Assembly (NCBI GenBank): GCA_027579435.1
Contig: JANBPK010000723.1
Location: forward strand, 1-55,275
Reading direction: 5' to 3'
Length of the DNA stretch: 55,275 bases
Source: Candolleomyces eurysporus
Taxonomy: Eukaryota; Basidiomycota; Agaricomycetes; Agaricales; Psathyrellaceae
The notes under the pieces are model-generated. The model searched no databases and was not told the origin of the DNA. It was given only the letters and a program-made list of their open reading frames with translations. Position numbers and translations under genes: made by a program. Positions 5,781-54,250 of this stretch are shown here, in pieces; the first letter of the stretch is position 1, and every line of letters starts with the position of its first letter.

Positions 5781-5817
5781 AGTTACGAGCCTTCATGTAA
5801 GGAGAGCCCGTTCTTGT
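5781..5817 (+). repeat. Internal second copy of the Helitron 5' terminus
   Basis: This 37-nt stretch matches 275-311 at all but about five positions: AGTTACGAG, GTAAGGA and CGTTCTTGT are identical in both. It sits only about 16 bp beyond the stop codon of gene B. It probably marks the original 5' end of a shorter (about 17.6 kb) ancestral element, with 278-5780 added later. Confidence 0.7.
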
Positions 5818-5832
5818 TAACAACATGATTAC

Positions 5833-7103
5833 CTACTCGCTGTCTGAGTCGACCCTCATTCTGTTGAACCTGCGACCCGCCTCCTCGGTATCTGTGTCGC
5901 CGGTCTCATAGTACATGATCCTCCGCTTCAGAACTGGCTGTCCCTGTTGCTGCAGGGTCGCACCGAAATCAATGGTCTGATATCTCCGACGCATTCTGAG
6001 GATAGCAGCAGCCTGCAAGTCTCGTTGAGCTCTCGGCGGACAACATGCATCAACAGCATCCCACTCACATTACGTTCAGTCTGATCTAGCAGCAGTAAAG
6101 CCCGGAGCTGGATATGCATCTTCGCTGAGTTGTTCTTTGTCGGGATAGCTGCAAACGAGACGGTAGCCTCCACTATGTCTCCGTGTTTGAACACCACCGG
6201 ATCCACGGCTCGATACCTGTGAGTTAACATATTTAGCATAAAACAATTTGAAGGAATTTTGACTCTTACATCCTCGCGCCATCTGGTCCGATAAGCTGTT
6301 CCATATAGTCAACCCTGTTGTCGCTGGTGTGAACGTAATCAGCCTCCATTAGCTCCCTCAGCGAGCCGCTTGCATCCACATAAGGCGCAAATTCAACTAT
6401 GTCTCCGGCTGCGGAGTGGTTAGCCTGCGTGAAGTATCGCGCGTTTGCTTCCAGAGCCGGGTTCCCGTCAAACATTGAAGGCTGCCATGGTTCTAAGGAC
6501 CCTTCCTTAAAATGATTCGACAGTTTCAGGTATATCGCTTCGATTTGATTGATGCAGCGGACCATGTCTTCGTTTCCTAGGCCGGTCAGCTTAACATTCT
6601 GGCGGAGGTACTTGCGCGCCCTGAGACGGGTTGACCTGTTTCTGTACAATCTCTTTCACAATTGCTTCCAAAGGCACAGCTTGGTTCACCTCACGTACCC
6701 GTTGAGAACCACGGGTGGAAGGTCCTTCCCGCAGAGCACGCCCTGCACCCGGAAGCAAGCCTCCTCCAAGCTGCTATCTGGGCCTTTCTCAATGCATAGA
6801 CGCCATGCCCTTGGCTGGTTGAAAAAGCGCGTGGTGCAGTTGGCAAGCTAATTTATGTCAGCTATGCAGATAGACGCTGTCTAGGTAGAAGCTGCTCACC
6901 TTTGTGGTGGCAAGGTAGAGGTCGTTCGCCTCGGAATCCGCTCCCAGAGCAGAGTCCCTGTCCTTTATTATCTGTTCCAAAGATTTAGCTGAAACAGAGG
7001 TCTTGTCAGTATGCCTTCTGTCTGTGGTGGTGATCCAAAACATCCTGCGCTTACCTGCATTCTGTTTGCTATAGAACTCATCCATCTCTTGTGTCTCACT
7101 CAC
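5833..7103 (-). CDS. Gene B (left copy): uncharacterised Helitron cargo protein, 328 aa
   Basis: Six exons on the minus strand: 7103-7055, 6988-6900, 6847-6699, 6641-6270, 6216-6069 and 6012-5833. All phases agree and give 328 aa, starting MSETQEMDEF. Recognisable blocks are QPRAWRLC...LEEA.FR.QGVLCGKDLPPV (residues about 55-90), RLRARKYLRQNVKLTGLGN, GDIVEFAPYVD, YVHTSDNRVDYME, and the strand-rich DPVVFKHGDIVEATVSFA. It ends with AAAILRMR and an acidic tail. The same blocks and intron phases occur in the right copy (52937-54250). I recall similar sequences in many Agaricomycete genomes but know of no assigned function. It is divergent from gene C across a 549-bp region. There are no signal peptide or membrane segments, so it is probably intracellular. 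Confidence 0.75.
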
Positions 7104-7652: not shown

Positions 7653-9713
7653 ATGGCTCGTACTAAACGATCTTCTCAGTTGTCGTACGCCCACCATTTT
7701 CCTGCTGTTCTTCATATAGCGGACTGACCTTTATCCGTTATTTCCTACTTAGTGCTGGGGCCAAGTCGTGAGTCTCTACTGAAAGCACTTTCAACGCTCC
7801 TCATTCACTACTGATGAATGAAATTCAAAGTGGTAGCCAGCCCAAAGGTCAAAGTCCTGAGTATGTTCCAGACGACTATGAGCTCGTCGAACCTCCTGCG
7901 TGAGTAGCTCTAGAACAATTACAGTTTGAGCTTGTGATTCTCATTTGCCTTGTAGCACTCAAGCTCGGGCAAGCCCTGCTACACCCACCCCTTCCAGCTC
8001 CAAGAAACGAGTTCGAGCTGACGTCAATCCCACTCCTCCGTGCGTATACCAGTAATTCTTTTTGTTCCACCCTTCAATCTCTAATCTTCCACGTCTATAG
8101 CCCTGCAAAGAAGAAGAGCAAGACCGCTCTGTCTCAGGCGACCGGTTCCGCCATCGTTGTTCCTGATTCCGTGCGTTCCAAGCTATCCTGTAGTTTTGGA
8201 CTGACTTCATACCTCTAGCTACAACAGGACGATGATGATGAAGACAATTCTTCTAGCACCACTCGCAGCGTGTCTGATACCACAGAAGCCATGGATGCTG
8301 ACATTGAAGACGATGTGGAGACTCCCAAGCCTACCCAGGCAGCGGGCAAGAAAAAGGCAACAAACCTTAAGACCCAGTTGGGCGGAAGACTTGGGACAAA
8401 TGTCTTCGACGCCCATGCTGATGCTGACCATGGAACTACCCCTATCGTCACTCTTCCGTCCTCTGATTTCACGCGGGAGAATAAAGAGAAGTGGGCAAGT
8501 TCTTATGTTGACGGAAATAAGACTCATTTGTTTGTAAAGTGAGTCGCCGCCTGAGTTTGCCTGGCCGCTCGCTTTGCTTACCGGTTGTGCACTTCAATCA
8601 AGGGCTCGCGCATCTGATGACGCCTTGCTCGTTAACAAAGCCATTCTCGACCCTTACATGCTAAAGCATGGCTATTATAAGGACCTCCCTAATGCCAAGT
8701 GAGTAGCCTCGTCCATTTTCCCGATCCGAAGAGTTCGACTCATTGTGTCTCCACAGTAAGTTGCAGCTTTACTCTGTCAACGAACGCCAAGGTCTCGAGT
8801 TCACTGACGGTAATTTGAGCTCGCTTGTGCCCGGACTATCCATCGAGACGTGGGACTGCTTTGGTATTGAAAGATCGTAAGTCTCATTTTTGTTTTTGGT
8901 TCCTCTGCTCACCTTGTCCATTCAGCTACGTCGCTGGTCTTCATCGCTTCAAGCGTCAAGGCGTATTTGCAAACGCGTCTACTGTTGATGTCACTGAATT
9001 GGTTTTCAAAGAAACTTACTCCAACCAAGGACCTGGAGGTGCATATATTGCAGCCATGAAGCACGATGGCAAGCCCGTCGTCTTTGTGATGGTTGGCGCA
9101 ATCATGGAGTCGTTTATTGTCCACGGCAAGAATGTAGGACTTGATGGCAAGGCGCCATTTGCTCGAGGAATCATAGTCCTCGGTCATCGATTCGAGTATG
9201 AACGCTGGTCGTGCACCCTTGCTACTCTGTGGCAGGCCGAGGACATATTTGCCCCCATTCAACGCCGCCACATAACTCTCCAAACCCATAACCGTTCCAA
9301 CCATCCAACGACTGACGCTTCGTCAGATACCGCCAAGGTCACCGAGGTCAAGAAGGGAAAAATGGTCATCAGACCTTATCTCAGTCCCACCAAGCCAAAG
9401 ACGTCGGTCAAAACCCAGACATACATTAATTTTACTGAAGAAAGTACGTGTAGCTTGCGGTTCTCTCCTCTTCTTGAACTGACTTCTGACTCGCTGTTTA
9501 CGTGCAGTTCCAGTCTACGACGGCCGCAACCAGGCCTTCGAGCCTGAAGACATAGCTGGTTCCCTTGCCCGTCTTCCTAAATTCGTCTCGGACGACGGCG
9601 AGATTCCTGAGGGTTCCGGTGTTGTTGTTGGGTATTGTGCCGCTACCTCCAAATTCTTGTCCATTTGGAAGCTTACTTTATACATCCAATGGATCGTTGT
9701 TGTTGCTGTCTAA
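7653..9713 (+). CDS. Gene C (left copy): uncharacterised nuclear-type cargo protein, about 506 aa
   Basis: Ten exons are inferred: 7653-7684, 7753-7767, 7831-7899, 7956-8039, 8101-8170, 8228-8538, 8603-8698, 8757-8876, 8926-9443 and 9508-9713. The phases sum to 507 codons; the 15-nt second exon is the weakest call. The start MARTKRSSQ is matched by MARTKRAAQ in the right copy. Residues about 40-110 are disordered, with basic clusters (SKKRVRA, AKKKSK) and then an acidic DDDDED tract, suggesting a nuclear protein. The conserved core holds FT.ENK..WA.S.V.G.KTHLFVK, ILDPYM.KHG, LVPGLSI..W.CFGI and VVFVMVGAIMESF. The C-terminus has VPVYDGR, DDGEIPEG and AATSKF.S.WKLT.Y.QWIVV. I recognise no enzymatic motif. 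It converges on gene A and diverges from gene B. Confidence 0.75.
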
Positions 9714-10157
9714 GAACAACTCAAACGGTTAGCATTCCAGGTTATTGTCTTTATTGCATAATCTTCCCCTAGCTTCTGTTTTCTCCTATCCTTCTAGCCT
9801 TCTGTCTTTTCTCTGTTGCGTGTCGTTTGTCTAATATCTCCCGTGGCCGTTCTTCAACAGATCGGTCAGTAGCATACCCTCGTCCTCGACCTCTTGCTCT
9901 TGTTGCCTTCTACTTGCCTTCTATGCTGTACCTCTTCACGCTGCTGTGCGCGCTGTCATGCCTCGCATTATACACTCTCCTTGTCTACCTGTCGTACACT
10001 TTAATCTGTCCTCGTTGCATATCTTAAATGAACGCTCTTTGTCTCGCTTTTGGAGTGCCTTACAAGCCAACNAAAAAAATAAAGATACAAGCGTCGATAT
10101 GGTACGCAAAGCAAGGGTGTTACACAAGGTAGGCAGGATGGATAGCTAGGAAGATGG
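9714..10157. other. Convergent 3' region between genes C and A
   Basis: 444 bp between two convergent stop codons. It is T/C-rich and has an N beside an A-run near 10072. No gene seen; it probably holds both polyadenylation regions. Confidence 0.5.
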
Positions 10158-13100
10158 CTAGGGGAAATACTTGAGAGAGTGGGAGAAGGTGCGCAACAGG
10201 TGCTCCACGCGCATGGGGTCAACTTCTGGTGCCTGAAACGGCCTATACGTAACGCCTGCATTCTCGTCCTCGTACTCTTTCCTATAGTCTGGTATGTCAA
10301 ACAGCAGGTAGCCGAGATCCATCAGGGCCTGTCCAACCTGTACCCTCCTCACGTCGATATCCCTCTTCTTCCCGTCTACTAACCCTAGTAACTTGAGACC
10401 CGACAACGCCCCCTGATTCATCTGAACAACATGCTTCGCAACGTCGGCAATGCTTGGCGGTCGACAGAAGCCGGAATATGCAAGGTCGCACGCAATGTCG
10501 AACGCATCCGTCTTGCTGAGCTTCGGATACAGTCTGTTTTCGAGAGAGCCGTTGGGCTTGAAATGCTGATAACATTCCTCAAAGCTGGGGTATGTTTCGG
10601 CGAACCGCGTCCATCGCCTTTCCGTAAGCATGGCCCAGTANTTTTTTGACGGCCTTTGTCGTACTCTCCGATGGTTCGCTCTTCAAGATGTGTCTATACG
10701 CCTCGAGGAAGTCTGCTGGTGACGAGAAATGCATGCTGCTGTCTGGATGCCACGAAAAGACCTGGGGGAACGCCCTCCAGACAAGCAGGCTGAACACGGT
10801 GGACTTCGAGATCGGCTCTTCACCATCGAGCAAGTCTCGCCTGCATCGAACTCGTCCGGGGGAGCTCTCTCTGAGAGGATGATAGCCGTTCGGGTCGGCC
10901 TGTAGCTTCTTTAAGTAGGGGGTCGCCTTGGGAGGTTCCTCATCCATATTATACAGTGTCGCCATGTGGATCATTTCTTTCAGGGCGTTCCAGCGCGGCG
11001 ATACACTGGGCAGGTGTTTGATGACTTCGGAAGGAGACACGTCGCCGTTTAGGAGCTGTTTGTATAAGTTGAACAACTGTCCTTCTCTGTGGTCGGGGTC
11101 GAGCACGCTATGCCCTTCGAGCGCGGTTCGAAATGGGAGCATGTCCTGCTTTGTTGGGTTGCGATAGCCCTTGTCTCCGGGTATAATGTGCGAGGCCTTG
11201 ACGTTGGCGTACAGTTCCCACACGAGTTTCAATGTCAACGCTTCGCTTCCCATAACCTCTTCGACGATAGACGCGAACCAAGCTTGCTTCTTGTCCCCAA
11301 ACCTGTCAATGTCAACCCACTTCTCTACAACGTCCACCGCTATCAGAACAGCCGCCTTCACCGTCTCCTCCCGCCCGCGGAGCATATGATTCCCTTTGTA
11401 CAGGTTGGTTATCTTCACCGCCTTGGACTTCCATCCCAGCCCATAGTCCGACGCCTTGAACGATCTCCTCTCCTGTTTGCGAACGAGCATGTCGACGATG
11501 TCGTTGGTAAGGTTCGACACCCACGAGTGTTTGTCGGTCTTGGCCCTTATACGTCGGGCTGCGGCGGCTGCCTCATCTGCAACTGGTCCCTCTACCCAAC
11601 TACGCATGCCCGTCTGCGCCTTGATCAGTGTCAACCTCGACATACGCAACCTGTTCTCTTCTCGACCGATGAAACTGGACAGTCGCTGCGCGTCTTCAAT
11701 GATTCTGCTAATGCCCTTCGTCGCTCTGAGTCCGACCCCCCCTAGCTCGACCGCTTCGGTGGCGCCTTCCAGGCCTTCTTTGATGCCTTCGTAGTCCGCA
11801 TCGTCCTCCTTGCCTTCATCGAAAACGTCGAATGCTTGAAGTTCGGTCCTCAGGTCCAGCACCTCACTCTCCAAGGCTTCCACCGACAGCATACGAGTCA
11901 GCTTGAACGTATCGTCTGCGGAAGATGTCGCTCAGCGGACGAATCGATAAGAAGGAAATCAAGTTCGCAGGAGCCTCATACCTTGGTTGAAATTGACGAC
12001 GTTCTTGCCTCTTCGCTTTTGCTTGACCGCCTTCGCACTTCCGAGCGTTCGATTGACGGTATCGTTTTCACCTTCAGACTCTATTCCATCGTCGTCATTC
12101 AGCTCTTCGTCCGTAGCAGGGTTTTGTGGGTATGTCTTCTTCCTTTTATGCCCGTCGGAGTTGCGTTGCGATCGGCGCTGACTCTGTTGACCCGCTCCAT
12201 TTTGCGCCTCCTCTCGTTCATCGTTGGAGACGTCGGCCCTCTTTCGCTTGCGCAAGGTGTTTCCCTTTGTATTCGTACCTGGTAGAAAACCAATAACAAT
12301 AACAAAAACAAACCAAAAAAGAAAATCGCGAGGGTTTCCGTTAGCAGAAGGTCGATCGTGCATGTTGTAGATTGCTTACTCTCGTCGGCTTGCATGACCG
12401 CATCTGTCGGACTGCTGGATTCCTCTGTCGGAGCTTCAGTTCCTAGACGGATTGGTTAGCAAGCTCAACGGTAAAAGGAGCAGTCAGCGACATCATACCC
12501 TGACCATCCACGGCTAGGTCGGCAACCGTAGGCTTCGTCGAGACAGATCCATTCTGAGCGAATCTCCTCTCTGCCTCCTCCTTGATCCACGCAGATCGCG
12601 TGTAGTACGCTGGGATCATGCAACCATGCTTGAACATGTGCTCTTTAAACCTCTGTTCGCTAGCCTCTCGCGCGATATCCCTCTCGCTGTTCGTGCCATC
12701 CTGTACCGATGGCGCCATCCCCCAGGGCGTAACCTGTGTTCGAGTGCCGTCTTTGTTGATATAAGTGACAGCTTGGGCAACCAGAGCCGGGTCGAGCTCA
12801 AACTCGAACCTTCCAGGACTCTGCATCAACAGATAGCGAGCTACCAGGTAAATAACCCTCCCGACATAATCCGCGTACCCTTCGTCGTCCATGATCCACG
12901 GGCCGTCCCTCAAATAGTTCGCAAACGAATCGCTTTGAAGCCCCTTTATGATGTCTTTCTCTGCCCTGGAACACTCCCATCAGATTTTGCCGTCTTATCT
13001 CTGGCCGTGGAGACTCACTTTGACGACCTCATCTCCGGTGACAAAAAAGCTCGTATATTGGGAAGCGCGCCGATACGCTGTCTGGTTTCTCCAGCAGCCA

Positions 13101-14443
13101 TTCGTTGAGGCGTATAGTGGACGAGCGTGAACCGATATGCGGTAGGGGACGTAGGTGTACCGGGCCGAGGGTAAGGGAGAGTTCCGGCATGCTCGTGCTG
13201 TGCTTGAAAGGTGAGGCCTAGAAAGTCGACCATGTTGCTGTATACACCAATTCCGGGGAGTATCATACGAGGTGGATGGTAGTTTGGAGGTAGTTTGGAG
13301 CGGGTAATCAGAGTCGAGTAATGGCCCGGGCAATCGTTTTGATCTCGATGAGGGCGCCCAAATCGGCCCATCTGTTCATTCATTGAGGTACCTACAACAT
13401 AATATCAACGTAATGTCCTTTGCTTCCCGTCACCCTTCCAACATACCAGCATATGCGAGATTGCACTGTACTGAATGGTATGCGTAATTGCTCTTCGAAC
13501 CCAGCGGGGCCGTGCCATGCCTGTCGAACTCCGACTGGAGGATCTCCTTCACCTCCTCCGGCGCGTGGGCGATATCTTCCATGGCCATAGCGGTAGACGC
13601 CTAATGCACCGTATCTTTGTTAAAATTCATGTCCGCAGCCTTCGAAAATGGTGCTTACGTTGACGACTGCCCTTGTGATTTCGTGGACCTCCTCGGTCTG
13701 CCCCTTCCACTTTCCATTGGCGCATGGTGCTTCTACGTTCGTGTTGGGCTCCAGCGACGAGCCCATCGTCCAGCATCTTGTTCCCGGTTTGACGGGCTTG
13801 GGAGTGGGCTTGAGCCTTTCAAACTTGACCGAGGATTCTGTGATGTCGGCCTCTGGCCCCATAAACGTATCGCGGGCACTGTCGAGGGCATTCTTGGTCT
13901 CTTCGCTACGCTTGTCGCTGTTTAAAGGCACAGATCAGCGTCATAGGCCGTCAAAATAGCACAAAAGGCTGCACATACGGTCCCACTACCCATGCTACAG
14001 GGACGTCGTCCACGGGTCTCCTGCTTCCCAATTCGTTCCTTGTCCATAGATAGTCGCCAGCCTTCAGCTCCAGCAGCCCTGCAACAAGTCATCCATCGAG
14101 TCAGTGCCCCAGGATAAAGAACCCCTTCCAATATACGCAAAATCTCAAGGATACGACAACGGTCTTAGATCAACTCACCAGACCTCTCGAACTCCGCTTC
14201 GTTCTCGACAGGGAGCAGCATGGTTTCGCCGGCTTGGAGCAGCTCTTGCATCCTCTCTCTCGTGGGTCTTGTGTAGAATACGATCGAACGGCCAGGGTTC
14301 GTTTCTGGATGGAGCGGATGATTCTTCGCCTTGTATAGGGCTGGCATGCGCGGGTTTCTGCCCGGCAGTTCCAAGGGCTCGAGGTCTGAGTCGTACGTTT
14401 CTTCGAAATCGGCGCCAGTAGATGGAGATCGAGCAGTGTCCAT
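10158..14443 (-). CDS. Gene A (left copy): predicted 2OG-Fe(II) dioxygenase fused to a large unknown domain, about 1244 aa
   Basis: Nine exons: 14443-14179, 14078-13979, 13917-13659, 13600-13447, 13391-13019, 12965-12499, 12442-12380, 12278-11982 and 11915-10158. Exons 2-5 (100, 259, 154 and 373 nt) have exactly the lengths of the right copy. An extra N beside an A-run at about 10641 breaks the last exon artificially. Residues 260-385 carry the dioxygenase-like core: H274-R-D276 (HxD), H327 in QHEHAGTLP, and R346 in AYRFTLVHYTP. These fit the metal-binding HxD...H and 2OG-binding Arg of the double-stranded beta-helix superfamily, possibly the TET/JBP branch. A basic NLS-like linker (LRKRKRA, HKRKKTY) joins a mostly helical C-terminal region of about 580 aa of unknown function. 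The gene is divergent from Rep-helicase. The fold call is an inference from spacing and conservation, so moderate. Confidence 0.65.
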
Positions 14444-15164: not shown

Positions 15165-18100
15165 ATGCGCTCTTCTCACCGTACCTATCTATCGTATACC
15201 CTAATAATTTGTCTGTCTTTAATCGGCTTCGCTGCCAGATTTTCGTACAGAACGTCGGTCTCTGTGGATCTCAACTTGAAGCCCACTTTGTCTTGCTACG
15301 ACTCTGTCGGTCAGTATCCTACTGCAGGTCAGCAGGTCTCCCCGAACCTTACGGTAATTGTGCCGGCCATGTATATCACCTTGCAAAGGGGTTTACCTCT
15401 CACGGCAAAATCGCCGGTCATTGTGTTGTCCGAATGCGGGAGACAGGCGTCCGTGTCGAAGTCCGCTACAAACCTTGGCGTATGCGCCTTAACGGATGCG
15501 CGTGTTGCAGTCGGTCCTCTTTTGCCGCTCGATGGACTGTGGGATGGGTGCCTTTTCTCTCCAAGCCTAGCATATCTCTGTCGGAGGTTGACCTGCCCAC
15601 GACTGCTCTTCGCGCCGTGCATGTCTGTCTTGCATGCCCATCTTTCTGCATGGTTGAAAGCTCTTTTATGTCGATTGTTGGCAACACGATCGCTTTATTC
15701 TAAGAATGAATTTGCCGCTCTTCTGCAAAACATTATACCTGGCTATTGTGACAGAGCTTCTCTTGAGATGGCGTGCTCCTGTCTGATGAACTGTCTGTCA
15801 TTTCTACTAAGACGGAACGCCTCGAACCGTGTGCCTGCCCGTTCCAGCACTCCAACTTACCTTTCACGCCGTATGCCTTTTCCCCGACCTATTGGAGGTG
15901 CTACCCATCTTCCTAATCGTGCGTTCAGCTTTGATGAATTGGCCATGTATAAATTGGTATCAAAAGCTGGCAAAGCGCCCCAGTTTGAACCTGGAGCGCT
16001 GTTTGAATTTTTGCTCCTGCTTCCAGCAGCCCAGGCTCTTGTACTCGTCAGGAGCCATCCAGAATATTTGGTGGTAGATGCGCCCGTCTGGCTGCCGCTG
16101 TCTTGTATGCAGGTCAACACCCTGAAAGATCTTGCTGTCCGCCACCGCATAGTTCTAGGACGTGACAACAGGACGAGAGATACAATTGTGCCTCTACTGC
16201 TGAAATGCCTGACTGAACAGAATGTAGAGTTATTCAGCATATTCCGCAATCTGCCACAGCCCGTTTCACCTCAGAAACGCGGCTCAAAACGAGCGTCTGT
16301 GAAGGTTGAAAGACCTGTACAACATGCTGAAGGTGTCCAGCGTAAATGTCCCGTGTTGCCTTCTCCTGCTGAGGGACTCAAAGATTTAGTTGAGAGCAGA
16401 GATGCTAACCTAGCAAATGTAACTTTTCCTCCTAAGCCTCTATCTCGCCAGGCACAAGAGAATATAATATCCAATTTTTGCGCAGCTTTGAGCCCTGTCA
16501 GTGTTGAAGAGGCAGGATGCGTTGTATGCGGCCAGCTAACACTCCGCTCGGACCTTACAGGCTTGGCTGGGCTTGATCTCTCTTGCTTAATTGCACCTGA
16601 ATGTACCAGAAAGCCGAGAGATTCTGATCTGGCCCCTATTGAGGGATTGGACGGCCCTGTCTTAGCCAGCAACTGTAATGGCATTTGCCCCAGCTGCTTT
16701 CGAGATGTGAAACAGCATAAGACTCCAAAACATTCTCTTGCAAATGGACTTTGGGTAGGTGATGTGCCGCCCGAGTTGTCTGACTTGACCTTTGCAGAAA
16801 AGATGCTGGTAGCCAGAATTCGACACAACAGTTGTTTGATTCGAGTGTCTTCTGGAAGGGCCAAAATGGTTGCAAATGCAATCATGTACTCGCTTCCAAC
16901 TGTCAAAGTGTATCATGCTCTGCCACCTCCTAAAGATGAGATGGAAGATGTGTTTGCATTTATATTCATAGGCCATAAAGAACCTACCCCTGATGATTTG
17001 AAAAGGATGCCAATGCTGGTGAGACGGAACAAAGTTGCCAAGGCATTGGAATGGCTAAAACTCAACCATGCTGACTATAGCGACCTTTGTATTTCCAAAG
17101 ACAACTTGGAAACTTACCCATTAAGTGGAGTGCCGGTCACCATGGACTTTAGAAAGATTGATGATTCAACTGATCCTACTGATAAAGAGCCCCTTGCAAT
17201 GAGTAAACATGAAGTAGATATAGAGCAAGGCACAACAGATGGCCCTTGTCCATTGGTGGTGAGAGGTCTGACGGGACCTGAGTATGAAAAGATGTCAATC
17301 AAAGCGCTAAAAGCAAAGGCGCTCCAGCATCTACAGTCAGGAGGAAAAATGCTGGCTGTTGGACACTCAAGTACTCCACAGTCCATGTATAACAATCCAC
17401 AGGCTTACCCACAGATGTTTCCTTGGCTGTTCCCATATGGCCTGGGCGGTATAGGACAGCCTCGACATATCAGGTCCATTTCAGCCAGGGAGCACAAACG
17501 TAGGCTTCTTATGTATCATGACAAGAGGTTTCAGTTAGACTACTACTTTCCAATGATAGCATTTAATCATGAGCAAATAAAAGCAAATGTAACAGGGAGT
17601 TACATATACTCCAAGAGAAGCAAGTTCCAGAATATATCAGGCAGGATTGCACATCTTGACCAGAGTGTGCTGTCGTCTGTAGCTGACAGGCTTTCTAAGG
17701 GAGAGGTAATCAAGCCTGAAACTGATGCAGAGAAAAATTGCTTTTCCTTGCTTGAAGACATTGATCATGTTGGGGCTTATGCAGATGGATTTCTAACAAG
17801 CAAAAAGTTCATGAGGAATGAGATATGGTCGCTGATATCATACAAAGGTGCGCCAAATTGGTTTATCACATTTTCCCCAGCAGACAACAAGCACCCCTTG
17901 TGTCTGTATTATGCAGACAAGAACATTGAGTTCACAGACAGCCTCAGAAGCTGTAAAGAGAGAGATTTACTGGTGTTGAACAACCCTGCTGCTGCTGCCA
18001 GGTTTTTCCATGTACTTGTCAAGCTGGTAATTAACCATGTCTTTGGATGGGGCAGTTGTACAGATGGTGTGTATGGAAAGCCTTCTGCATACTATGGGAC

Positions 18101-23165: not shown

Positions 23166-23191
23166 TTGCCCATGTAAGCACAGTAGGAAGA

Positions 23192-23371
23192 TGGAGTGGG
23201 CAGCTGGCACAGCAAGGCGGTACAAGAACTGATTAATCAAAATCAAAACTAAAGCTGGAGATTTTCTGGTTAAAAATAAATAAATAAAAAAGATAAAAAA
23301 TATATTAAAAAAAAAAAAAAAAGAAAAAAGTAAAGACTCGTACCGCCGTGCTGTGTCAACGGCCCACTCCA
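23192..23371. repeat. Imperfect 32-nt inverted repeat around the subterminal ATIR (left)
   Basis: Arm 23192-23223 pairs with arm 23340-23371 at 28 of 32 positions. TGGAGTGGGC at the outer end and GGCGGTAC at the inner end are perfect. The 116-nt loop holds an A-rich tract (about 23270-23329) and the right ATIR 23330-23342. The second arm includes the 3' hairpin GCCG...CGGC. Formed in ssDNA or RNA this would be a large stem-loop at the Helitron 3' end. The right element keeps the A-rich tract, ATIR and second arm but not an evident first arm. Confidence 0.75.
23330..23342 (+). repeat. Right asymmetric terminal inverted repeat of the left Helitron
   Basis: GTAAAGACTCGTA is the exact reverse complement of 278-290, placed about 80 bp before the 3' end and directly upstream of the hairpin. 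The same 13 nt occur in the right element (36655-36667, opposite strand). Confidence 0.8.
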
Positions 23372-23422
23372 CAAGTCCAAGTGCGTAGTGCTGGTCATGC
23401 AAGCCTGCGCTCAGCTGACGCT

Positions 23423-26883: not shown

Positions 26884-27170
26884 CTGGGATGCGGCGTTCA
26901 CCATATTCAACCAACTGAACACCTTCGTGTTTGGACATTGTCTTGATCTAGCTTCTCTGTGTGAACATTTATCTGACGGACTTCGTATACTGTATAGATC
27001 ATTTAATGTAGCTAGTTCAAATGTGTGTATGTGTGCGAATCATGTTCTAATCATGACTTTCTCCGCATACTCCATCTTCTATCACGCCCGAAATCGGTCC
27101 GAGAACACCGGCAGAAAGGAACCACAGCTGCCTCTCTCGTTTCTTCTTACGGCTCCCGACTTGCAGCAGG
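26884..27170. other. Short intergenic region RAD4-esterase
   Basis: 287 bp with no coding signal. It probably holds the RAD4 terminator and the promoter of the first esterase gene. Confidence 0.4.
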
Positions 27171-36654: not shown

Positions 36655-36667
36655 TACGAGTCTTTAC
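36655..36667 (-). repeat. Subterminal ATIR of the right Helitron
   Basis: The plus strand reads TACGAGTCTTTAC; the minus strand equals 23330-23342 of the left element. An A-rich tract (T-rich on the plus strand, about 36690-36735) lies inside it, as in the left copy. Confidence 0.75.
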
Positions 36668-42900: not shown

Positions 42901-44566
42901 AACCGCAAGCATTTTGCCTCCTGACTGAAGATGTCGCAAAGCATGAGCTTTCATAGCTTTGGCAGACATTTTCTCATATTCTGGTCCAGTCAGACCTCTG
43001 ACAATCAGCAGGCAAGGGCCATCGGCTGTGCCCTGTTCAACATCTGTTTCATGCTTGCTCATCTCAAGAGCCTCTTTATCTGTGGGGTCTGTAGTTTGAT
43101 CTACTTGCCTAAAATCCATAGTTACAGGCACACCATTCAAAGGATATGAATCAAGGGCCTCTTTTGAGATGTGTAAGTCACTGTAATCAACATGGTTTCT
43201 TTTCAGCCATTCCAAGGCATCTGCTACCTTGTTTCTCCTGACCAGCATAGGAGACCTCTTGAGATCATCAGTGGTAGGCTCAGTGTGGCCTATATACACA
43301 AATGCAAACACATCTTCTAATTCATCCCTCTGGGGAGGCAGCGCATGATAGATTTTAGCAGTTGGCAATGCAAACATGATAGCATTTGCAATCATTTTAG
43401 CTCTTCCAGAAGATACTCGCATCAGGCAGCAGTTATGTCTGACCCGGGCAACGAGCATCTTCTCTGCAAAGGTGAGCTTGGATAGCTCGGATGGGATTTC
43501 TCCAAGCCAAAGTCCATTTGCCAACGCATGCTTTGGCATTTTTTTTCTTAACCAAGGAGTTGTAGCAGCTAGGACAGGCAACACGACCTTCAGGGAGAGT
43601 CACAGGCCCATCGATCTCTTCTATGGGGCTGTCATCGTCCTTTCGCTCTCTGCGAGTCACTCCTGGTGCACGAAGAGCTTCAAGGTCCAAGCCATCAAGC
43701 GACTTGAGTTCTACTCGAACGGTAAGCTGACCGCAGACAGCGCAACCGGATTCTTCAACAGCTCGAGCAGAAAGATCGGAACAGAAATTGCTGATGATCT
43801 GTTCTTTCAGGAGCGTCGAAGCAGGGGCAGGAGGAAAGGTGGTAGAGGAAGGTGCATTCAGCAAAGAGAGGTTGGTCTGAGCTGATACCAGCGGTTCATG
43901 CAAAGCAGGAGTTGCAGATCCAGGCCGCTTTTGTCTTGACGAAGAGCCATTTGCTGGTTTTGAATGCCGACGAAATACAGATACATAGTTGTGACCCAGC
44001 TTCTCTAACTGAGCTTTCACAGTGGGTATGACAGTGTCTCTTGTCCTGCAGTCACGACTAAGGTAGATTCTGTGGCGAAATGCTAAGTTCTTGATAGCAT
44101 TCAGCTGCATAGCAGAAAAGGAGAAGTCAAGAGGGGTTTCAACCATTATGCAGTTTGGCTCTTTGTCCACATACTCGACGACCTGCGATCTATCTATTAG
44201 AGTCACAAATTCGAACACATCGTCGCCAGCAGGCTGAGCGTTGTTGCGGTTGGGAATCGCATGTGAAAACACAACGAGATCATTGAACAAGAACAGGGAC
44301 TTCTGCTTAGAGACAGCACCTCCCCTTGGCCGGCTTCTGGGAGCTGCATTCTTGCAGGCAGCATAGGGTTCAGGGTGATTACCGAGGAAAGCACTGTGCC
44401 ATTGTACCCAGCAGATAAGATCCATTCCAGGGTGGCAGGCAAGGCGAGGAAGAATGCCTTCGACAAGGGCAAGAAAGTCGTGCCTCAGATATAATGACCG
44501 TAACGCATACGCCTTGCACAATCTTACCTTCAGATACACGGAGCAGCTTATCCCGACATGAGACAC
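36921..44566 (-). CDS. Helitron Rep-helicase with USP-like peptidase (right copy)
   Basis: Homologous to 15165-23165 over its whole length, with every catalytic landmark kept. These are the zinc ribbon CAVC...CPSC, ALANGLW..LTFAEKMLVARVRHN, HUH as LTLHLHMMVW, tyrosines YVTDYITK, Walker A GGMGGTGKS, DEVSM, GDFAQLPP, QNMRQN and DYSAQGKT. At the C-terminus SCAYD, IYHGSSHFTSR and WYNDG are also kept. Frame breaks occur at about 43545, 41778 and 40484, each an 8-T run where 7 would restore the aligned frame, and at an N beside a T-run near 38012. The protein is therefore probably intact in the genome. The start is uncertain: alignment with the left copy begins at about residue 22 (RSLYLRHDFLALVEG), and an intron may precede it. 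It is divergent from gene A. Confidence 0.85.
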
Positions 44567-45730
44567 AACTGAATGGAATGCAGAACACAGCAGCGGGGGN
44601 CGGCCTGTCAGAGAAGACAGCGGAAGATAAATAGCAGAGATGAGCGGCTGCGAAATGCTGCTGCGAATTGTAGGACGCGTTCACGGACAAAGCGTGCGTT
44701 GGCACGATAGACGGAAGGCCAACTGACATGTAGATTATATTCAACAAGAATGTAGATGGACCACCAGACGTATAGAACGGACAGCCGTGCTCGAGGACAG
44801 CAATATGTTCAAGAGGGGAGGCCACACCCTGCAGGTGAACTTGCGGTGCCCCAAGCTGTGATCGCTCGGTTAGCCCGAGTACGAGGTCGATGAAAGGACA
44901 CATCGAGGAGCGGAAGGATGACTCTGGTTCGATCGGCTGTGCCGTGCGCTTGCAATAGCGCGAGACCGGAATGTATTCCGTAGATAGAGCGGCCGGTGCA
45001 ATAACCGTACTCGAGAGCGAGATCTGCCGGTGGGCAGTGAGAGGCTGAACCATCGGACAAGCAGAGTCCGAGGTCGACGTCGAAGGGTCACCGGGACCGT
45101 GTCCAGACACGGAAGCCGGGGAAATTGACGTCAGAAAGAGGTAGAACAAATATATATAAGGCATCGAGGCTGAGAGTGACATGTAGCAGCTGGGTCTACG
45201 AAAAGCGGTGGAGCGCAGAAGTTGAACAGCAGAGGGATCAAGACTCACGAAGTTCAACATTCCACAAACAAGGACAAATATCACCATCATATCAGCCAGG
45301 GCCATCGTATCTAGCCGACATCCACCATCATCACTGCACACCTCCGCCTCCTCAGAGACAAACGGAATACCACGATGTTGGAAGGCTGAATACCAGCGAG
45401 TGCTCGACGGAAAGCCAGCAGCTAGGCGTCTGTCGACTTCGAAAGCGAGGATGGCGGATCAGAGGGCGAAAGACAGTGACGCCATCGGCGACCGAAGAAT
45501 CGAAAAGTCGGGGTAGCCTTGCAGCAAGCTCAGATGCTGTATGCTTCCTCCCTACGACGTGGGCCACGCTTCTATCCATCCGACGTCCCTCGGCCATCTT
45601 CTTCGCGTACGGCCTTGGGCACGTCTCTTAAGATTTCTTCGTGAAGCCTTGGAAGGCAGACGCTGCGTACAAAAGGGATGGCCAACAGGCAGATGCAGCG
45701 AACGGTTCCTCTCGCTTTCGTGCTGCCAAC
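44567..45730. promoter_or_regulatory. Divergent region between Rep-helicase and gene A (right)
   Basis: 1.16 kb with no conserved ORF and an N at about 44600. It corresponds in position to 14444-15690 of the left element. TATATATAAGG at about 45150 (plus strand) is a TATA-like sequence facing gene A, but it is distant from the start. Confidence 0.35.
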
Positions 45731-48700
45731 ATGGAAGGACTACCCCCACCGACCGAAGAGTATGACGACGATCTGGTGCCGCTCTGTCTGCCGGGAAGGC
45801 ATCCGCGTATGCCGGCGATGTACAAGGCCAGCGACCATCCTTTGCACCCGACAAACAACCCCGGAAACTCGTACGTGTTCTACACAAGACCGACGGAGGC
45901 GAGGATGCAGGAGCTCCTGCAGGCAGGAGAGACCATAGCGGTGGAGGCCGAGGTCGAGATCGACCCAGAAGCTGCTGGTGAGTCTGTCCATCGACGCCGT
46001 ACACCAGCACGCATCATATAGATATGCATCGTCCAATAGGGTTCTTGAAAATCACATCGGGCGACTATGTATGGACACGCAACGAAGCAGGCAGCCGACA
46101 CCCCACAGACGACGTCGCAGTGACATGGAAGTTCGGAAGGTAAGCACGAAAATCGTCACGGTTGTCTTCGATGGCAACATACCGTTGACCTTCGCATATA
46201 GAGAGAGAAGAAGCATGGAGAAGATGGACGCCCTGGACGCCGCTAGAGACAAATTCATGGGGCCCGAAAACAAAATCACGGAAGATTCAGTGCGGTTCGA
46301 AAGACTGAACCCTAAACCTAAGCCCGTAAAGCCAGACACGAGATGCTGGTCGCTCGGTACCTCCCTGGAGCCCAACACGAACATTGAAGCGCCATGCGCG
46401 AACGGAAAGGTCAAGGCGGGCGTTACAGAGTACAACGACATTTGTCATGACCTCGTTGTGGTGAGCCCGTTCGTATTATGCGAAAGTAAGGTAAAATCGC
46501 TGAATGAAGGCAATAGGCGTCTACCAGCTTGGCCATGGAAGACATGGAGTGCGCTCCAGACGGTATCAAAGAAGTCATCAAGTCTGAGTTCGACAGGCAC
46601 AGGATGGCGCCGTTAGGGTGGAGAGGGAACTTCGCATATCATGCCGTCCAATGCAACTTGGCTTATGCTGGTACGTCGCCAGGGCGTTGACATTGGATTC
46701 ATGACACATGCTGACAGACTTGCTTTAGGCAAATCGATGGAAGATCAGATGGGCAGGTACGCTGGGGTTCACCGGGATGTGCGGGACTGCCCTGGCCACT
46801 ACTCGACCATGATAACCCGTTCCAAACTACCCCGGAACTATCGACCACCCAGGATTTTCCTAACCGGGATTGGAGTATACTCTGATCTGGAGGATTTCGA
46901 CGGATTCACGTTTCAAGGCCAACGAGATCACGTCGGATCACCACCGTACCCTTTACCTGGGACTCTGCCACACCCGAAAGCGTACAGATTCGCCCTTATC
47001 CACTACACCCCACGCCGGATGGCGTCTGCGGACACCAGGCAGCGGATAGGTGCCCTACCGACAACACAGGCGTTCCTAGCCCCAGAGATGAGGTCTTCCC
47101 AGTAAGCATGGGTGTCCTTGTACAGATACAATTAAACTGACAGCTTCTGTATGGGCACAGGGCAGACAAGGACTTGGTCCGAGGAATGCAGGAAGACTCG
47201 TTCGCAAACTTCCTCAGGGACGGTTTGTGGATCATGGAAGACGAAGGATTCATACCGTATGTCGGCAGAGTATCTTATCAAGTTCTACGGTTCCTCCTCT
47301 TGCAAACGAACGAGAGATTCGAGTTTGACCTCGATCCGGTGAAGCTCGCGAAGTTGATCACCTACTCGACTTCGGATGGCTTGAGAAAGTCCGTTGAGCC
47401 CTGGGAGATGGCGCCGACTCTGCGTGGGAGCCGAGACCCTGAAAGGGAGGCAGAGAGGGAGGAGAGCGAGAAGCGCTTTAAGGAGCTAGTGTTCAAACAC
47501 GGTAGCATGATACCGTACAGCTTCATGAAGAATGAATGGATAAGGGAAGAGGTGGCCAGAAGGTATGGCAACATCAGCGGCAGCCATACGAACGACAAAG
47601 GTGGACACGTTGAAGGTGAGTCTTGCATTGGGTATGGGGCGCGTCCAGGGAACTGACGTGTGACGAGCAGGAAACGGCGTAGAAGCAGAAGAAGGCATGG
47701 TGGATGGAAGCATGGACTGCACTATGACTGATCCGAGCGGCAACGCGGAAGGTAAGCGACTTAACGCAGAGACTCCGGCATGCAGTCTGCCTTTCTTTCT
47801 TTCTTTCTTTNCTTTTTTTTTGTTTTTTTTTTTTTTTATTCCGTCCTTGCATCGCTTAACCCCAGTTTATTCTTGTACAGGATCCCAACCTTCATCTCGC
47901 AAGTCGCTGTCAACGGGCTCGACTTTGAGACGCAGCACGCGCAAGCGAAAGAGGATGGAGAAAGAAAGTGACGACGAAGACGAAGATGCAGTACGGGATC
48001 ATGAACATCCATCAGCTGGAACACCCGAGACGACGGCAGATCCGAAGAGGATGAAACTCTCGGCGACCTTCGCGTACGGAGGCTCCATGGATGACACGGG
48101 CGGGCTTGCCGGGGCCCAGGGCCTTAGGCGACGCCAGGGCATCAAGAAGGTCTCCACCGTAAGGCCAGGTACGGTGTTCCATATTGTGCCACTGGATACG
48201 TAATGACTTCAACTCAATGTAGAGGACTTGTACAAGCTAATGCGGTCGCTAACTGTAGATGCCCTGGAAGAAGAATTGCTAGACCTAAGGAACGAGATAC
48301 AGGCAGTGGAGGAATCTGAACATCAAACAGAGGCGTCTTACGATGAACTCAAGGATAGCCTTCAAAAAGCGAACAATGCGATCGAGCTAGGAGGCATAGG
48401 GCGAAATGCAGTCAAAGGCATCGGCTCGATCATCGACGATGCCCAGCGTCTATCCCTTCACATGGCCCAGGAAGCCAACAGGCTTCGATCGGCCAGACGG
48501 ACTCTTATCAAGGCGCAAGTCGGTGTCCGATGGTGGATCGAGGGTCCGGTGGCGGACGCAGCGGACAGAGCAGCCCGAAGGAAACGGACGTCAGCGGATG
48601 GACAGAACTGGGTTTCCAAGCTAACGAACACCATGGTCGACATGCTCGTGTGCAAGCAGGCAAGCAAGACTTTCAGGGCGACGGACTACGGGCTGGACTG

Positions 48701-49967
48701 GGGATGCACGGAGGCAGTGGTTGACAACATCCATACCGGGCGGATGATGTTTCGAGGCCATGAAGATACGGTGCGAGAGGCGGTGGGAATGACCCTTGCG
48801 GTAGTAGAGACTTGGGTGGAGGCCGACCGACACTGCGACAAGAAGCAGGCATGGTTCGCTGCAATCGTAGAGGACGTTATGGGGGAAGAAGCCTTGACAA
48901 TGAACGTCATATGGAACCTGTATACAAACCTCAAGACGTCTCACGTTATCATCGGAGATAAAGGATATCGCAACCCGACCAAGAAGGACATGGAGCCGTT
49001 TCGCATTGCGCTGGAGGGTCACAGCGTGAACGACGCTGACCACCGAGAGGGTCATCTGTACGAGCTATACAAACAGCTCCTGAACCAGGACATAACCCCG
49101 TCCGACGTTGTCAAAAGTCTGCCAAGCGTATCACCGAGATGGATCGCGATGCAAGAGATGATAGAACTGGCCACCATGTACGACGAGGAGGAGGTCGTTT
49201 CCTCTTCGTCGCCTTACTTCAAGAAGCTTCAATCCAACCCCCATATCTTCCATCCGATACGAGAGAGCGCGCCTGGAAGAAGGCGCTGCAGACAAGACCT
49301 ACTCGGGGGAAACCACACGATAACCAGGCCCGAAATCTTTAGCCTGATTGTATGGAGAGCATTTCCTCATGTGTTTTCGTGGCATCCGGATCGCACCATG
49401 CTTTATTCGTCGACGCAAGAGTTCCTGGTAGCTTACAAAAGGATTACGAAGACCGAGCCGCCAGCTGCCATTGTCGAAGCCGTAGGGAGGTACTGGGACA
49501 TGCTCGAAGAGAGGAGATGGTCAAGCTTCGCAGAGACGTACCCTACATTCGACCAGTGTTATCAACACTTCAAGCCAAACGGACGCCTAGAGTCGCGACT
49601 GTTCCCCAAGCTTAGCAGGACGGACACTTTCGACATGACCTGCGACTTGGCGTACGCGGGGTTCTGTCAGCCACCGTCGACTGCCGATGTCGCAAGGTAC
49701 ATTGTTATGCTGAACCAGGGCGCGATTGCGGGTCTGAGATCCTTGGGTCTGGTGGATGGTAAAAAGAGGGACGTCGAAACGAGGAGAGCACAAGTACATC
49801 GAGCAATGCTGGATTTAGGCGATTTATTGAAGGAAACCGCAGCCTACGGGGCGTACGAAACGGACGACTCCGAATGCAGCTTTGGTCTGTACGAGGAAGG
49901 GGAGATGGATCCCATGGCATTAGAACACCTACTACGTACCTTCTCGCACGCAGTAAAGTTGCTGTAA
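45731..49967 (+). CDS. Gene A (right copy): predicted 2OG-Fe(II) dioxygenase fused to a large unknown domain, about 1233 aa
   Basis: Nine exons: 45731-45977, 46040-46139, 46202-46460, 46517-46670, 46729-47101, 47161-47615, 47671-47751, 47881-48168 and 48223-49967. They sum to 1234 codons with consistent phases, and the frame is open with no N in any exon. The candidate active site is H268-R-D270, H321 in QRDHVGSPP and R340 in AYRFALIHYTP. All four align with the left copy, although flanking residues differ. An acidic and basic linker (STRKRKRMEKE, about 560-590) leads to a C-terminal region. That region contains IELGGIG..AVKGIGSIIDDAQRL, GDKGYRNPTKKDM, LPSVSPRW and CYQHFKPNGRLESRLFPKLSRTD. 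Intron 7 carries a CTTT microsatellite and T-run with an N (about 47793-47838). The substrate is unknown; DNA-base oxidation is only a hypothesis. Confidence 0.7.
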
Positions 49968-50282: not shown

Positions 50283-52326
50283 CTAGTCGGCGATGACAAC
50301 AATCCATTGGACATAAAAGGTGAGCTTCCAGCTAGACATAAACTTGGAGGTTGCCGCGCTATATCCTATCACTGCACCGGTACCTTCAGGAATTTCCCCG
50401 TCGTCAGACTTGTACCTGGCCATACCAGCAAGGCTTTCGGCAACATTCTGAGGATCAAAGCATCCATGACGACCGTCGTAGACGGGTACTACATGCATGC
50501 ACATTAGCCACCTACTAACAAATCAGTGAAGCCATATGCACTATCGTCGGCAAAATCGATCGAGGTCTGGGGTCGGCCGGCATGTCTCTTAGTCGGACTG
50601 GCATAGGATTTGATGTCCATCTTGCCAACCTTGATTTCTGTTTCCACCGGCTTCTCGGTGATATCTACAACAATGTCAGTTCAACACAACATAAGATCTG
50701 AACACAAGGAAGGCAAGGACACACTGTTGGGACGATTTTTGGTCTGGAAGGTGATCAACCTGCGCTGGATAGGGGCTGTGATTGCTTCACCTTGCCATAA
50801 AGTGGCAAAGGTACAGGATTGACGCTCGTACTCAAGACGGTGGTTTAACATGACAACCCCCTTTGCGAAGGGTCCCTTCCCATCAATACCGACGTTCCTC
50901 CCTTGAACGACGAACGACTCCATTATGGCACCGACCATCACGAAGACAACAGGAAGACAGTTGTCCTTGTTGCACGCAATGTACGCCGAACCAGCACCTT
51001 GAAAGGAAAACACCTCTTTGAAGATGAGATCAGTGACGTCGACGGTGGATGGGTTGATGATTTGGCCTTGACTAGGGCAACGCAGGAGCGAAGCCAAGTA
51101 CTCCTTGTTGATTCCAAAACACTCCCAGGAAGAGATGGAGAGGCCAGGGACGAGCGAGGTAAGTGAACCATCTGTGAAGTCCAGGCCCTGGGTCTCGTGG
51201 ATGGAAACAAGTTGAAGCATACTGTTGATTGGCACGTTCAGCATCGACGATGCTGAATCATAACTAAAAAGCCACCTACTTTGCTTTGGGGAGATTCTTA
51301 TAATGGCCATGCTTGACCATGTAGGGGTCAAGAATGCTCTGTCTTGCCAGCAGAGGGTCGTCCGAGGAGTGAGCCCTGCAAATTTGACAACGGTGGACAC
51401 AAAACCAATCAACAATGGAGCAGCAGTTCGAGTGAAAGACACATACTTAACAAACAGGTGAGTCTTGTGGCCCTCGACCCACGAACCGGCCCAGCTGGCC
51501 TTGTTCTCGAGAGTGAAGTCAGCAGAAGGAAGTAGCCCTATAGGAGCGGCCTTGGCGGCGGGGGCAGCGGACCCGAAAACCGTGTCGTCACCGACCAAAT
51601 TAACGCCCAGCTTACCGCCGAGCTGCGTCTTCAGATTTCCGGCTTTCTTCTTGCCCGTGACCTTGCTGGCCTTTGGCGTTTCCTGATCTTCGTCTTCTAT
51701 GTCGCCGTCACCAGCGCTGTCGGCACTTCCGGTAACACTAAGGTCGGCAACAGAGCTGCTGTCTTCATCATCCTACAGAGATAAGAATGAGCACAAGGGA
51801 TACGCGCATAAACGATAAAAAACGTACGGAATCGACGATGGTAGTAGAGGCGGCAGGTGCTTGCGTTAGGACCCCAGGTGAGACGGGCGTAAGAGCGTTC
51901 CTGCTCTTCTTCTTGGTCGGTCTGTGAGCAGGAGGCGATATTAGCTGACAGGTATCCAACCGCGTCAAAATCAAAGGCGCGTACGAAGGGGTCGGGTTGG
52001 CATCTTCTCTAACACGCCTCTTCAAGTTGCTAGCCATCGAAGATGCAGGGGTGGGGGTTAGAGGAGTACCACCGGTGCTGCAATCCGTTCAGCGGTAAGC
52101 TCGATGTAAGAGACGCTGAAAATGCACAAGGTATGAGGGTTGTCGACGATTTCGTAGTCGTCTGGCACATACTCCGGACTCGCTTGGTGGGGGACACTGC
52201 TTGCTTTAGAGCTCGCACTGAATGGGTTCGCAATGGACGAGCATCAGACACAGGAAGGTGACTGAAAAAAAAAAAAANNANAAGCGATACACACGAAGCT
52301 TGCGCAGCACGTTTGGTACGGGCCAT
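50283..52326 (-). CDS. Gene C (right copy): uncharacterised nuclear-type cargo protein
   Basis: Minus-strand counterpart of 7653-9713. It starts MARTKRAAQAS at 52326, with the same first splice phase as the left copy, and ends IQWIVV-like (QWIVVIAD) at 50283. Conserved blocks read in order: SPEYVPDDYE, LKRRVRED, TKKKSRNAL, acidic DDEDSSS, LKTQLGGKLG, WAGSWVEGHKTHLFVK, ILDPYMVKHGHYKNLP, GLDFTDGSLTSLVPGLSI, VVFVMVGAIMESF, VPVYDGRHG, DDGEIPEG and AATSKF. The intron before exon 2 contains a long T-run with three Ns (about 52266-52282). Several introns lie between the blocks; I did not fix every boundary. No enzymatic motif is recognised. TATAAAA at 52437-52443 on the minus strand is about 111 bp upstream of the start. 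Confidence 0.7.
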
Positions 52327-52936
52327 AGACGAAGGTTTAAAGCTTCAGAATAGAGTATGGTAATGAAAGAGAAAGGTAGAGGGGAAGCAGACTCGTTAAA
52401 AGGATGGGGAGAAGACACAGCAAAAACCTTGAAGGCTTTTATATGCAATCAACAGTTTTCTTTTTATTTTTGTTTTTTTTTATTAATACCTGGTTTTCCC
52501 CCAGCTTGTTGGATGTTACGGACAAAGAGATCCAAAGCCAGATCTGAAAATCTGAAAGGTGGAGTGGAGTCGACGGGAAAGGTACCCGACAGCATACAAA
52601 GAAAGCCCTGAGGGGAATCGAAAGATGGGAGCGGTACGCGGCTGATCAAAGTAGAGGTAGCTTGGCGATAAAGGGTGCCGGCAACCTGAAGAAGCGAGCG
52701 TGCTGCTACGCGCAGCAAGATGCACACTTAAGTGTCAGATAGCCGACAGAACGCTTGGGAGAGACCCCAGATGGACTCATAACATGATACACAAACAAAC
52801 AACATACGGACCACTTGAACGAACCGGAATTCGGTCGATGGAGGTGATAAAAACACATCAAACCGATGAATTCAATCTAGGAATTCAAGGAGCAACAGAG
52901 GGCGAGCCGCTAGGACGGCGAACAAGGAGACACGAA
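52327..52936. promoter_or_regulatory. Divergent promoter region of genes C and B (right)
   Basis: 610 bp between divergent starts. TATAAAA on the minus strand (52437-52443) serves C and mirrors the left copy in position. No clear B promoter element was seen. Confidence 0.5.
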
Positions 52937-54250
52937 ATGGAAAGCGATATAAGTACCTCGGCCGGCAGTCGAGAAAGCCGCACTACAAGAACAAGTCGCG
53001 TCATGGACGACTTTTACGATCGAATCAAAGCGGGTAAGGCCAAGAAAATAAAAAACGAAGACAGTAAAAGCGATAGCTGACAATATGCACGTCTCGTGAC
53101 AGCCAAACAGCTGGGGGTGCTAGTCGAAAGCNAGAAGACCTGAAGGCGGGTCAACGGTCAGCGACCNTGAACCTCGCGACGGNGCAGGCNAAGTCGTCCA
53201 TGGCGTGGAGGCCGAAATGAACTGTTAACAGACCAAGCAGATCGACGAGTATGCTGCACACTCGTTCACGCAGCCAAGGGCGTGGCGACTGTGCTCGAGC
53301 AGTGGGACCGATGGGACCCTGGAAGAGGCAACGTTCCGCTTCCAAGGTGTGTTGTGTGGAAAGGACCTTCCCCCGGTGGCCTTGACTGGGTAAGCCAGTT
53401 GAAAACGTGCTGTATACGGAACAGATTGACTCACGAACGACGGCTGCATAGAAACAGGATGTCAAGGCTGCGATCGCGCAAGTATATCCGACAGAACGTG
53501 AAGCTCACCGGCCTCGGCAACCGCGACATGATACAATGTATAAAGCAGGTCGAAGCAGTGTACTTGAAGATGTTGAACCAATTTCAAGAAGGCACCCTCG
53601 AGCCCTGGCAGCCAGCAGTATTTGAAGGAACGGCAGCTATCGAAGCCAGCACGAGATACTTCACCGACGCCAGACACGCAGCATCAGGTGACATCGTCGA
53701 CTTCGCCCCGTACGTCGACCGAAACGGGCACTTGAAAGAGATAATGGAGAACGAATATGTCCACACGACGGACAACAGGGTGGATTACATGGAGATGATT
53801 AATTCTCCTGAAGGCGGTCACTGGTGAGTCTGATCAGTCCGACGGAGCAAAGGGAACGGGCTGACGCTCAGTGCAAGCTATCAAGCACTGGATCCGGTGG
53901 TTTTCAAGCACGGCGACCTGGTCGAAGCAACTGTATCGTTCGCCGTCATGCACACCAAGCACAAGACGGCCAAAATGCATGTTCTTCTTCGAGCACTTGT
54001 CCTCCTCGACCACACGGAACGGGATGTGAGTGCCCATCGTTCTAGACTCAAAGCAGTGCTGACATGCAAGATGCAGGCAGCTGCTATTCTCCGAATGAGG
54101 CAGAGATACCAATCCATCGATTTTGGCGTCGTGCCAAGCATTCGGCCAACACTGAAGAGAAAACCAAAATACTACGATCTCGATACCGACGCAGAGGAGA
54201 CCAGCCGCAGCATGAACAGGATGAGAATCGATGGACCAGAAACGGATTGA
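52937..54250 (+). CDS. Gene B (right copy): uncharacterised Helitron cargo protein
   Basis: Exons are inferred at 52937-53033, 53103-about 53193, 53232-53389, 53452-53823, 53878-54025 and 54078-54250. Splice phases equal those of the left copy, and the fourth exon has the same length (372 nt). Exon 2 is corrupted by four Ns (about 53132-53190), so its frame and end cannot be verified; LNLAT-like residues there match LYLAT of the left copy. Conserved blocks are FTQPRAWRLC, TLEEATFRFQGVLCGKDLPPV, RLRSRKYIRQNVKLTGLGN, GDIVDFAPYVD, YVHTTDNRVDYME, DPVVFKHGDLVEATVSFA and AAAILRMRQRYQSIDFG. The N-terminus is longer than in the left copy (MESDISTSAG...VMDDFYDR). Function unknown. Confidence 0.7.

Follow-up and report, generated by a model that had tools for sequence, protein, structure and literature searches.

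We analyzed a 55,275-nucleotide stretch of DNA (the window) that is one whole contig (C1001) of the 65.85-Mb genome of the fungus Candolleomyces eurysporus (1,296 contigs) and that carries two inverted transposable elements of the Helitron kind. As revealed by six-frame self-comparison, both elements are ordered Rep-helicase, A, C, and B (A denoting the large gene and B the small one). Relative to the Rep strand, A and B are opposite and C is the same in both elements, a layout that an earlier note on this DNA had read from the letters and that the gene models bear out. In element 1, Rep-helicase lies at 15621-23165 (+; start taken from the model), A at 10158-14443 (-), C at 7653-9713 (+), and B at 5833-7085 (-); in element 2, the corresponding positions are 36921-44568 (-), ~45730-49967 (+; start approximate), 50283-52326 (-), and 53003-54250 (+). 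Exons 2-5 of A measure 100, 259, 154, and 373 nucleotides, and exon 4 of B measures 372 nucleotides, with GT..AG borders in both window copies, as the note had stated. The automatic models alternatively chose 118 and 169 nucleotides for two exons of A in element 2 and 383 nucleotides for exon 4 of B in element 1; the equal-length exons, however, likewise have open reading frames and agree in the two copies. The considerable protein divergence that had been remarked upon is borne out: between the two elements, A, B, C, and Rep share 62-68% identity (columns prefiltered for a local identity of at least 35%).

Element 1 reads E(-), D(+), B(-), C(+), A(-), Rep(+) and extends over 276-23376 (+), its ends being the points where homology between copies stops. 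The 5' terminus, TTACGAGTCTTTACGTAAGG... (277-309, +), was present in five of the six copies examined (element 1 and those on C55, C246, C244, and C523) with unrelated flanks, which places the boundary in element 1 at 276/277; it was not found in the sixth copy, C785, whose likeness to its near-twin C55 stops inside gene E. The 3' terminus, TAAAGACTCGTACCGCC...ACAAGT (23331-23376, +), contains a subterminal inverted repeat and a short hairpin, the stem of which is seen in both window copies with a stability no greater than that of shuffled sequences. The copies on C246 and C1020 are 97% alike through ...ACAAGT and unrelated beyond it, and this fixes the 3' end; further, the sequence past ACAAGT differs among the five copies examined. 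With both termini located, element 1 is therefore present end to end, at 23.1 kb. In both window copies, the end motif TAAAGACTCGTACYGCCGTG lies downstream of Rep (the 3' terminus of element 2 being at 36622-36666, -); the genome has 33 places with this motif, allowing up to two mismatches, compared with two for the reversed control, and all eight elements that contain Rep, A, and C have it at ~5.1-5.5 kb from their Rep domain. The 5' terminus also bears the 5' arm of a 12-bp asymmetric terminal inverted repeat, formed by TACGAGTCTTTA at the 5' end and its reverse complement, TAAAGACTCGTA, 34 bp in from the 3' end; such a repeat is a Helitron2 feature in the description of the FoHeli elements (PMC5148889). 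The Rep exons of element 1 encode a DUF6570 domain, the HUH Rep domain Helitron_like_N (E 8.6e-30), and a PIF1 helicase domain (E 5.8e-17), and Helitron_like_N matches both window copies of Rep. We conclude that element 1 belongs to a Helitron2-type lineage.

Several boundaries and labels had to be revised. The C-terminal part of Rep, which the note called a peptidase in its Rep-Pif1-peptidase description, returned no Pfam match; there was likewise no Pfam match to a Helentron-type endonuclease domain on the Rep pieces scanned, which covered part of the exons. In element 1, the Rep frame is broken directly after the Walker A motif (20500-20540); in element 2, it is open there. Position 5784, given as the end of element 1, is not its start but falls in a degenerate second 5' terminus just past gene B (5783-5815, +; 5 of 33 positions mismatched), which may be left over from a shorter element or represent an alternative end. 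No such second terminus was found in the sequence examined from six further copies, where, as in the end of element 2, the best match has at least 14 mismatches. Similarly, position 54250 is merely the stop of B in element 2, and no 5' terminus of this element was found between that stop and the contig end at 55275; the element meets the contig edge before any D, and D and E, if present, would lie beyond. We also note a variant end motif, TAAAGGCTCGTACTGCCGTG, at eight places (on C260, C460, C682, C689, C980, C1097, C1108, and C1200), possibly representing a related nonautonomous family.

The conserved set exceeds the three-gene module originally described and contains at least five genes, with the addition of D and E. 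Gene D (3337-4567, +) is on the Rep strand and resembles the Pfam F-box-like family below the cut-off (E 0.072; 13.3 bits against 24.3). Seven strong D places were found in the genome, all beside B (element 1, C246, C523, C244, C55, C785, and C221), together with a weak one on C1088 that is beside B yet on B's own strand. Gene E (1005-2264, -) is the part, conserved from ~1005, of an open reading frame at 762-2264. It was seen in all five further copies examined, at 54-75% identity, and produced no Pfam match; all six copies have a GS...PNDLD or PNDVD motif, which we take to be a nucleotidyltransferase signature. In the protein encoded by gene C, a low-complexity N-terminal region containing runs of basic and of acidic residues precedes a conserved part.

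The A, C, and B proteins were searched against the whole genome, and the search was repeated using B and C proteins of greater divergence. Merging of rows reduced 56 Helitron_like_N rows to 50 places, 58 A rows to 15, 39 + 38 B rows to 20, and 33 + 33 C rows to 11. Rep, A, and C occur together in eight elements (the two in the window and those on C523, C246, C244, C55, C221, and C1020), and B is present in seven of these, with no B match in C1020. The distance to the Rep domain is nearly constant: 2.9-3.2 kb for A, 7.4-7.8 kb for C, and 10.3-11.2 kb for B. Overall, 8 of the 15 A places, 11 of the 20 B places, and 10 of the 11 C places are within 25 kb of Rep, compared with at most 3.8% expected from the share of the genome so covered; within this genome, this is the repeated co-occurrence that the note had proposed to look for. 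All Rep-linked places are 5' of Rep, with A and B on the opposite strand and C on the same strand. For the remaining places (nine for B, seven for A, and one for C), the contig has no Rep match; several of these contigs are short (C785, C776, C190, and C450; 10-11.5 kb). No other gene of the set is found as widely as B, and every strong match of C or D in this genome lies beside another member of the set. Conversely, a match to A, B, or C lies within 25 kb of only 12 of the 50 Rep places, leaving 38 with none, and the elements bearing these genes therefore represent one lineage among several. Two further elements, on C1008 and C222, have far-diverged C and B at 3.4-3.7 and 8.1-8.9 kb from Rep, respectively, and no A match between Rep and B. 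This suggests that the core is Rep-C-B and that A is probably a later gain, or was lost in these two elements.

The same genes are associated in other species. Five of the six A proteins of C. efflorescens and both A proteins of C. aberdarensis have a C protein at a neighboring locus tag (the C protein search scored the 7,991 candidates sharing most words), and in three cases across the two species, a B protein is also at a neighboring locus tag. Relatives of B were additionally found by protein search in Coprinopsis, Ephemerocybe, and, weakly, Mycena.

The ratio of nonsynonymous to synonymous divergence (dN/dS) cannot be read from the pair of window copies, whose synonymous sites have reached saturation, and closer copies were used. 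At dS 0.6-1.5, dN/dS was 0.07-0.10 for the A core exon, 0.12-0.20 for B, and 0.11-0.19 for C, the constraint on C equaling that on the other genes of the set. For D, the usable pairs were at dS 1.5-2.5 and gave 0.11-0.16; for E, the ratio was 0.06-0.12 with the exception of one young pair, and 0.10-0.12 at dS 0.6-1.5. The youngest pairs (dS 0.03-0.07), which have few changes, gave 0.27-0.45. Element-to-element distances measured on A are correlated with those on C (r = 0.87, 12 elements), as are those on C with B (r = 0.89, 7 elements) and on A with B (r = 0.69, 7 elements), and the genes have therefore traveled together. We conclude that A, B, C, D, and E are under purifying selection, which upholds the protein-level constraint proposed for A, B, and C; the neutral divergence expected of random, decaying fragments was not encountered. 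We also observed that the copy pairs C246/C1020 (L101/L102) and C55/C785 (L099/L100) are 96-98% alike in the stretches compared, which, with C246 and C1020 being unrelated past the 3' end, points to recent movement.

None of the A, B, and C proteins has a Pfam or NCBIfam match above the cut-off, and profile searches of PDB sequences with their alignments returned nothing under E 0.1. For B, the predicted structure was informative: it has the fold of T7 gp2.5, the phage Enc34 single-stranded DNA-binding protein (SSB), African swine fever virus (ASFV) CP312R, and many giant-virus proteins, including the oligonucleotide/oligosaccharide-binding (OB) fold characteristic of the gp2.5 and giant-virus type of ssDNA-binding protein. 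The solved structures are viral and share no detectable sequence similarity with B, and B had no RPA match by Pfam and no significant similarity to C by hhalign. Pattern scans of IMG/VR viral contigs confirmed no relative of B or C, and PHROGs gave weak matches (E 0.0058 or weaker) to families of unknown function. A match of B to M-inducer_phosp (E 0.0046) was taken to be due to chance. Of the functions suggested in the note, replication support is thus well supported for B by its predicted structure, and DNA modification, discussed below, is plausible for A.

Gene A encodes a dioxygenase-like core and a helical C-terminal half. All 18 A cores, with identities as low as 39%, retain HxDxxD, H at +53, and R at +72, which is the layout of the 2-oxoglutarate (2OG)-Fe(II) oxygenase triad. 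Two Tet_JBP-type genes of this genome have the histidine at +50, as counted by eye; A was not among the matches listed in the Tet_JBP search of the genome, and its comparison with TET by hhalign was not significant. TET families are also not among the PDB structures listed for A, although the AlphaFold model, being unusable over the N-terminal core, cannot decide this point. A lacks the hallmark of the PE type of TET/JBP protein reported for Agaricus, HxE in place of HxD (PMC12730594), all 18 cores having HxD. The top structural alignments of the helical half are with a phage base-transferase, queuosine-salvage enzymes, and 8-oxoguanine or 3-methyladenine DNA glycosylases, and this half is a candidate member of the helix-hairpin-helix-GPD (HhH-GPD) DNA glycosylase superfamily. 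A weak match of gene A to WEMBL (E 0.0035) was taken as a chance one. Six distant A-like genes (L069-L071 and L091-L093; 25-31% identity) with HFD...H...R cores are present on C1150, C475, and C190, contigs without a Rep match, of which C1150 (124 kb) and C475 (80 kb) are long; on these two, weak Plavaka transposase matches lie ~8 kb from the distant A genes. Separately, we detected a strong gene for HMUDK_hel, the 5-hydroxymethyldeoxyuridine (5-hmdU) DNA kinase helical domain (L089, C995:43800-45100; 349 bits with its neighbors), and a shorter HMUDK_hel match on C1123 (L090), neither of which is gene A. DNA hypermodification is reportedly treated by Iyer (2013).

The comparison establishes the constant gene order and orientation in eight copies (seven with B), the location of the element ends outside the genes, purifying selection, and the correlated divergence of A, C, and B. 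We consider it likely, at better than even odds, that a Helitron2-type lineage has at least five genes of its own, A, C, and B among them, and that these three serve its transposition, with B coating ssDNA and A oxidizing bases of the element and so lifting or pre-empting host silencing. Because the same helper genes recur in the same order across copies, B is predicted to be a virus-type ssDNA coat, and A is a likely base modifier, the transposon probably carries its own kit for replication and escape from silencing rather than random captured host genes. In the mechanism we envisage, Rep would nick and unwind the element, and B would bind the displaced strand exposed during rolling-circle copying, as the RPA-like protein may in plant Helitrons. 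Gene A, with its core and glycosylase- or base-transferase-like helical domain, would alter bases of the element and allow it to escape silencing. C, D, and E would assist in further steps, and D may touch ubiquitin control, as the deubiquitinase domains of other Helitrons are described as doing (PMC9741609).

An alternative is that these are passively captured host genes, which the two window copies share merely through one recent ancestor. Gene capture by Helitrons is known, the Rep of element 1 is broken, and six distant A genes are on contigs without a Rep match, all of which would suit such an origin. However, eight copies have one layout. Further, the window copies retain 62-68% protein identity although their synonymous sites are saturated, dN/dS is 0.06-0.20 except in the youngest pairs, gene sets recur in other species, and the strong matches of C and D in this genome all accompany set partners. 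Passive capture is thus already contradicted in this genome, and we regard it as scarcely credible. A descent of B, and perhaps C and E, from giant viruses, the element being a hybrid that spreads like a virus or rides in one, would account for the viral nature of B's nearest folds. The IMG/VR and PHROGs results described above argue against it, no capsid or packaging gene was recognized among the genes looked at, and similarity of fold gives no date for a transfer; we judge this very unlikely.

The role of A leaves more room. It could be a glycosylase-type protein acting in DNA repair or base exchange and not a TET-like oxygenase, its N-terminal core being otherwise employed and the module being a kit for replication and repair only. 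The ranking of the C-terminal alignments fits this reading, as does the fact that neither the family search nor hhalign nor the model matched A to TET, and the invariance of the HxD/H/R layout in every core, together with the similar spacing (H at +50) in the two Tet_JBP-type genes, speaks against it; on balance, it seems to us unlikely. A bolder version of our proposal, somewhat more doubtful still, is that the transposon resembles a phage genome: with an SSB of the giant-virus type, an A protein in which an oxygenase and a glycosylase-type base-transferase are fused to hypermodify the element's own DNA, and D (F-box) and the end of Rep steering ubiquitin, it would replicate as a marked, protected circle.

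Helitrons have a reputation for picking up random pieces of genes. In the lineage described here, a set of at least five genes has kept a single order under selection, and one of these genes is predicted to encode a virus-type SSB; the old question of what a Helitron needs besides RepHel thereby becomes testable. Parts of this arrangement have precedents, and the note's suggestion of a system not yet described for Helitrons does not hold in full. The FoHeli Helitron2 elements of Fusarium share with element 1 the Rep and PIF1 helicase, the asymmetric terminal inverted repeat, and, putatively, the short 3' hairpin; they are ~5-11 kb long, against 23 kb and six genes here, and their authors found no RPA-like gene (PMC5148889). 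TET/JBP genes occur in fungal Helitrons, including a Helitron2 of Agaricus bisporus (Kojima 2025, PMC12730594), which are thus also fungal Helitrons with a dioxygenase-like gene; A differs in its HxD and in not being listed by Tet_JBP, and the portion of that report examined makes no mention of an SSB gene or of genes like C, D, and E. Plant Helitrons encode a long-retained RPA gene, PHRPA (PMC4683698). B would make a second case of a Helitron with its own, here predicted, ssDNA-binding protein that has long been kept, although its closest folds are of the phage and giant-virus SSB kind and not, by Pfam, RPA. In the basidiomycete HELPO1 Helitrons of Pleurotus, capA and capB are likewise genes of unknown function beside RepHel, and capB is kept there in other species (PMC4289320); going by their description, the cap genes are downstream of RepHel, whereas the accessory genes found here are upstream. 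Some Helitron proteins have a further enzymatic domain, a VTD/OTU deubiquitinase (PMC9741609); in the present elements, the end of Rep matches no Pfam family. Our literature searches returned no title or abstract describing a Rep-A-C-B-D-E gene set, and the kind of SSB, the number of genes, and the fixed alternating layout are new relative to the literature examined. If A modifies DNA, it would provide a concrete enzyme for the escape of transposons from methylation in mushrooms.

Finally, we note two features of the window outside the elements. A coding stretch of the Rad4 type (nucleotide excision repair; Pfam Rad4, E 1.3e-20) is located at 23616-24920, its open reading frame beginning 240 bases beyond the 3' end of element 1. 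At 27130-31068, there is a tandem gene duplicate, the copies of which are ~2.6 kb apart, are 64-85% alike in protein sequence in stretches, and weakly match peptidase S9.
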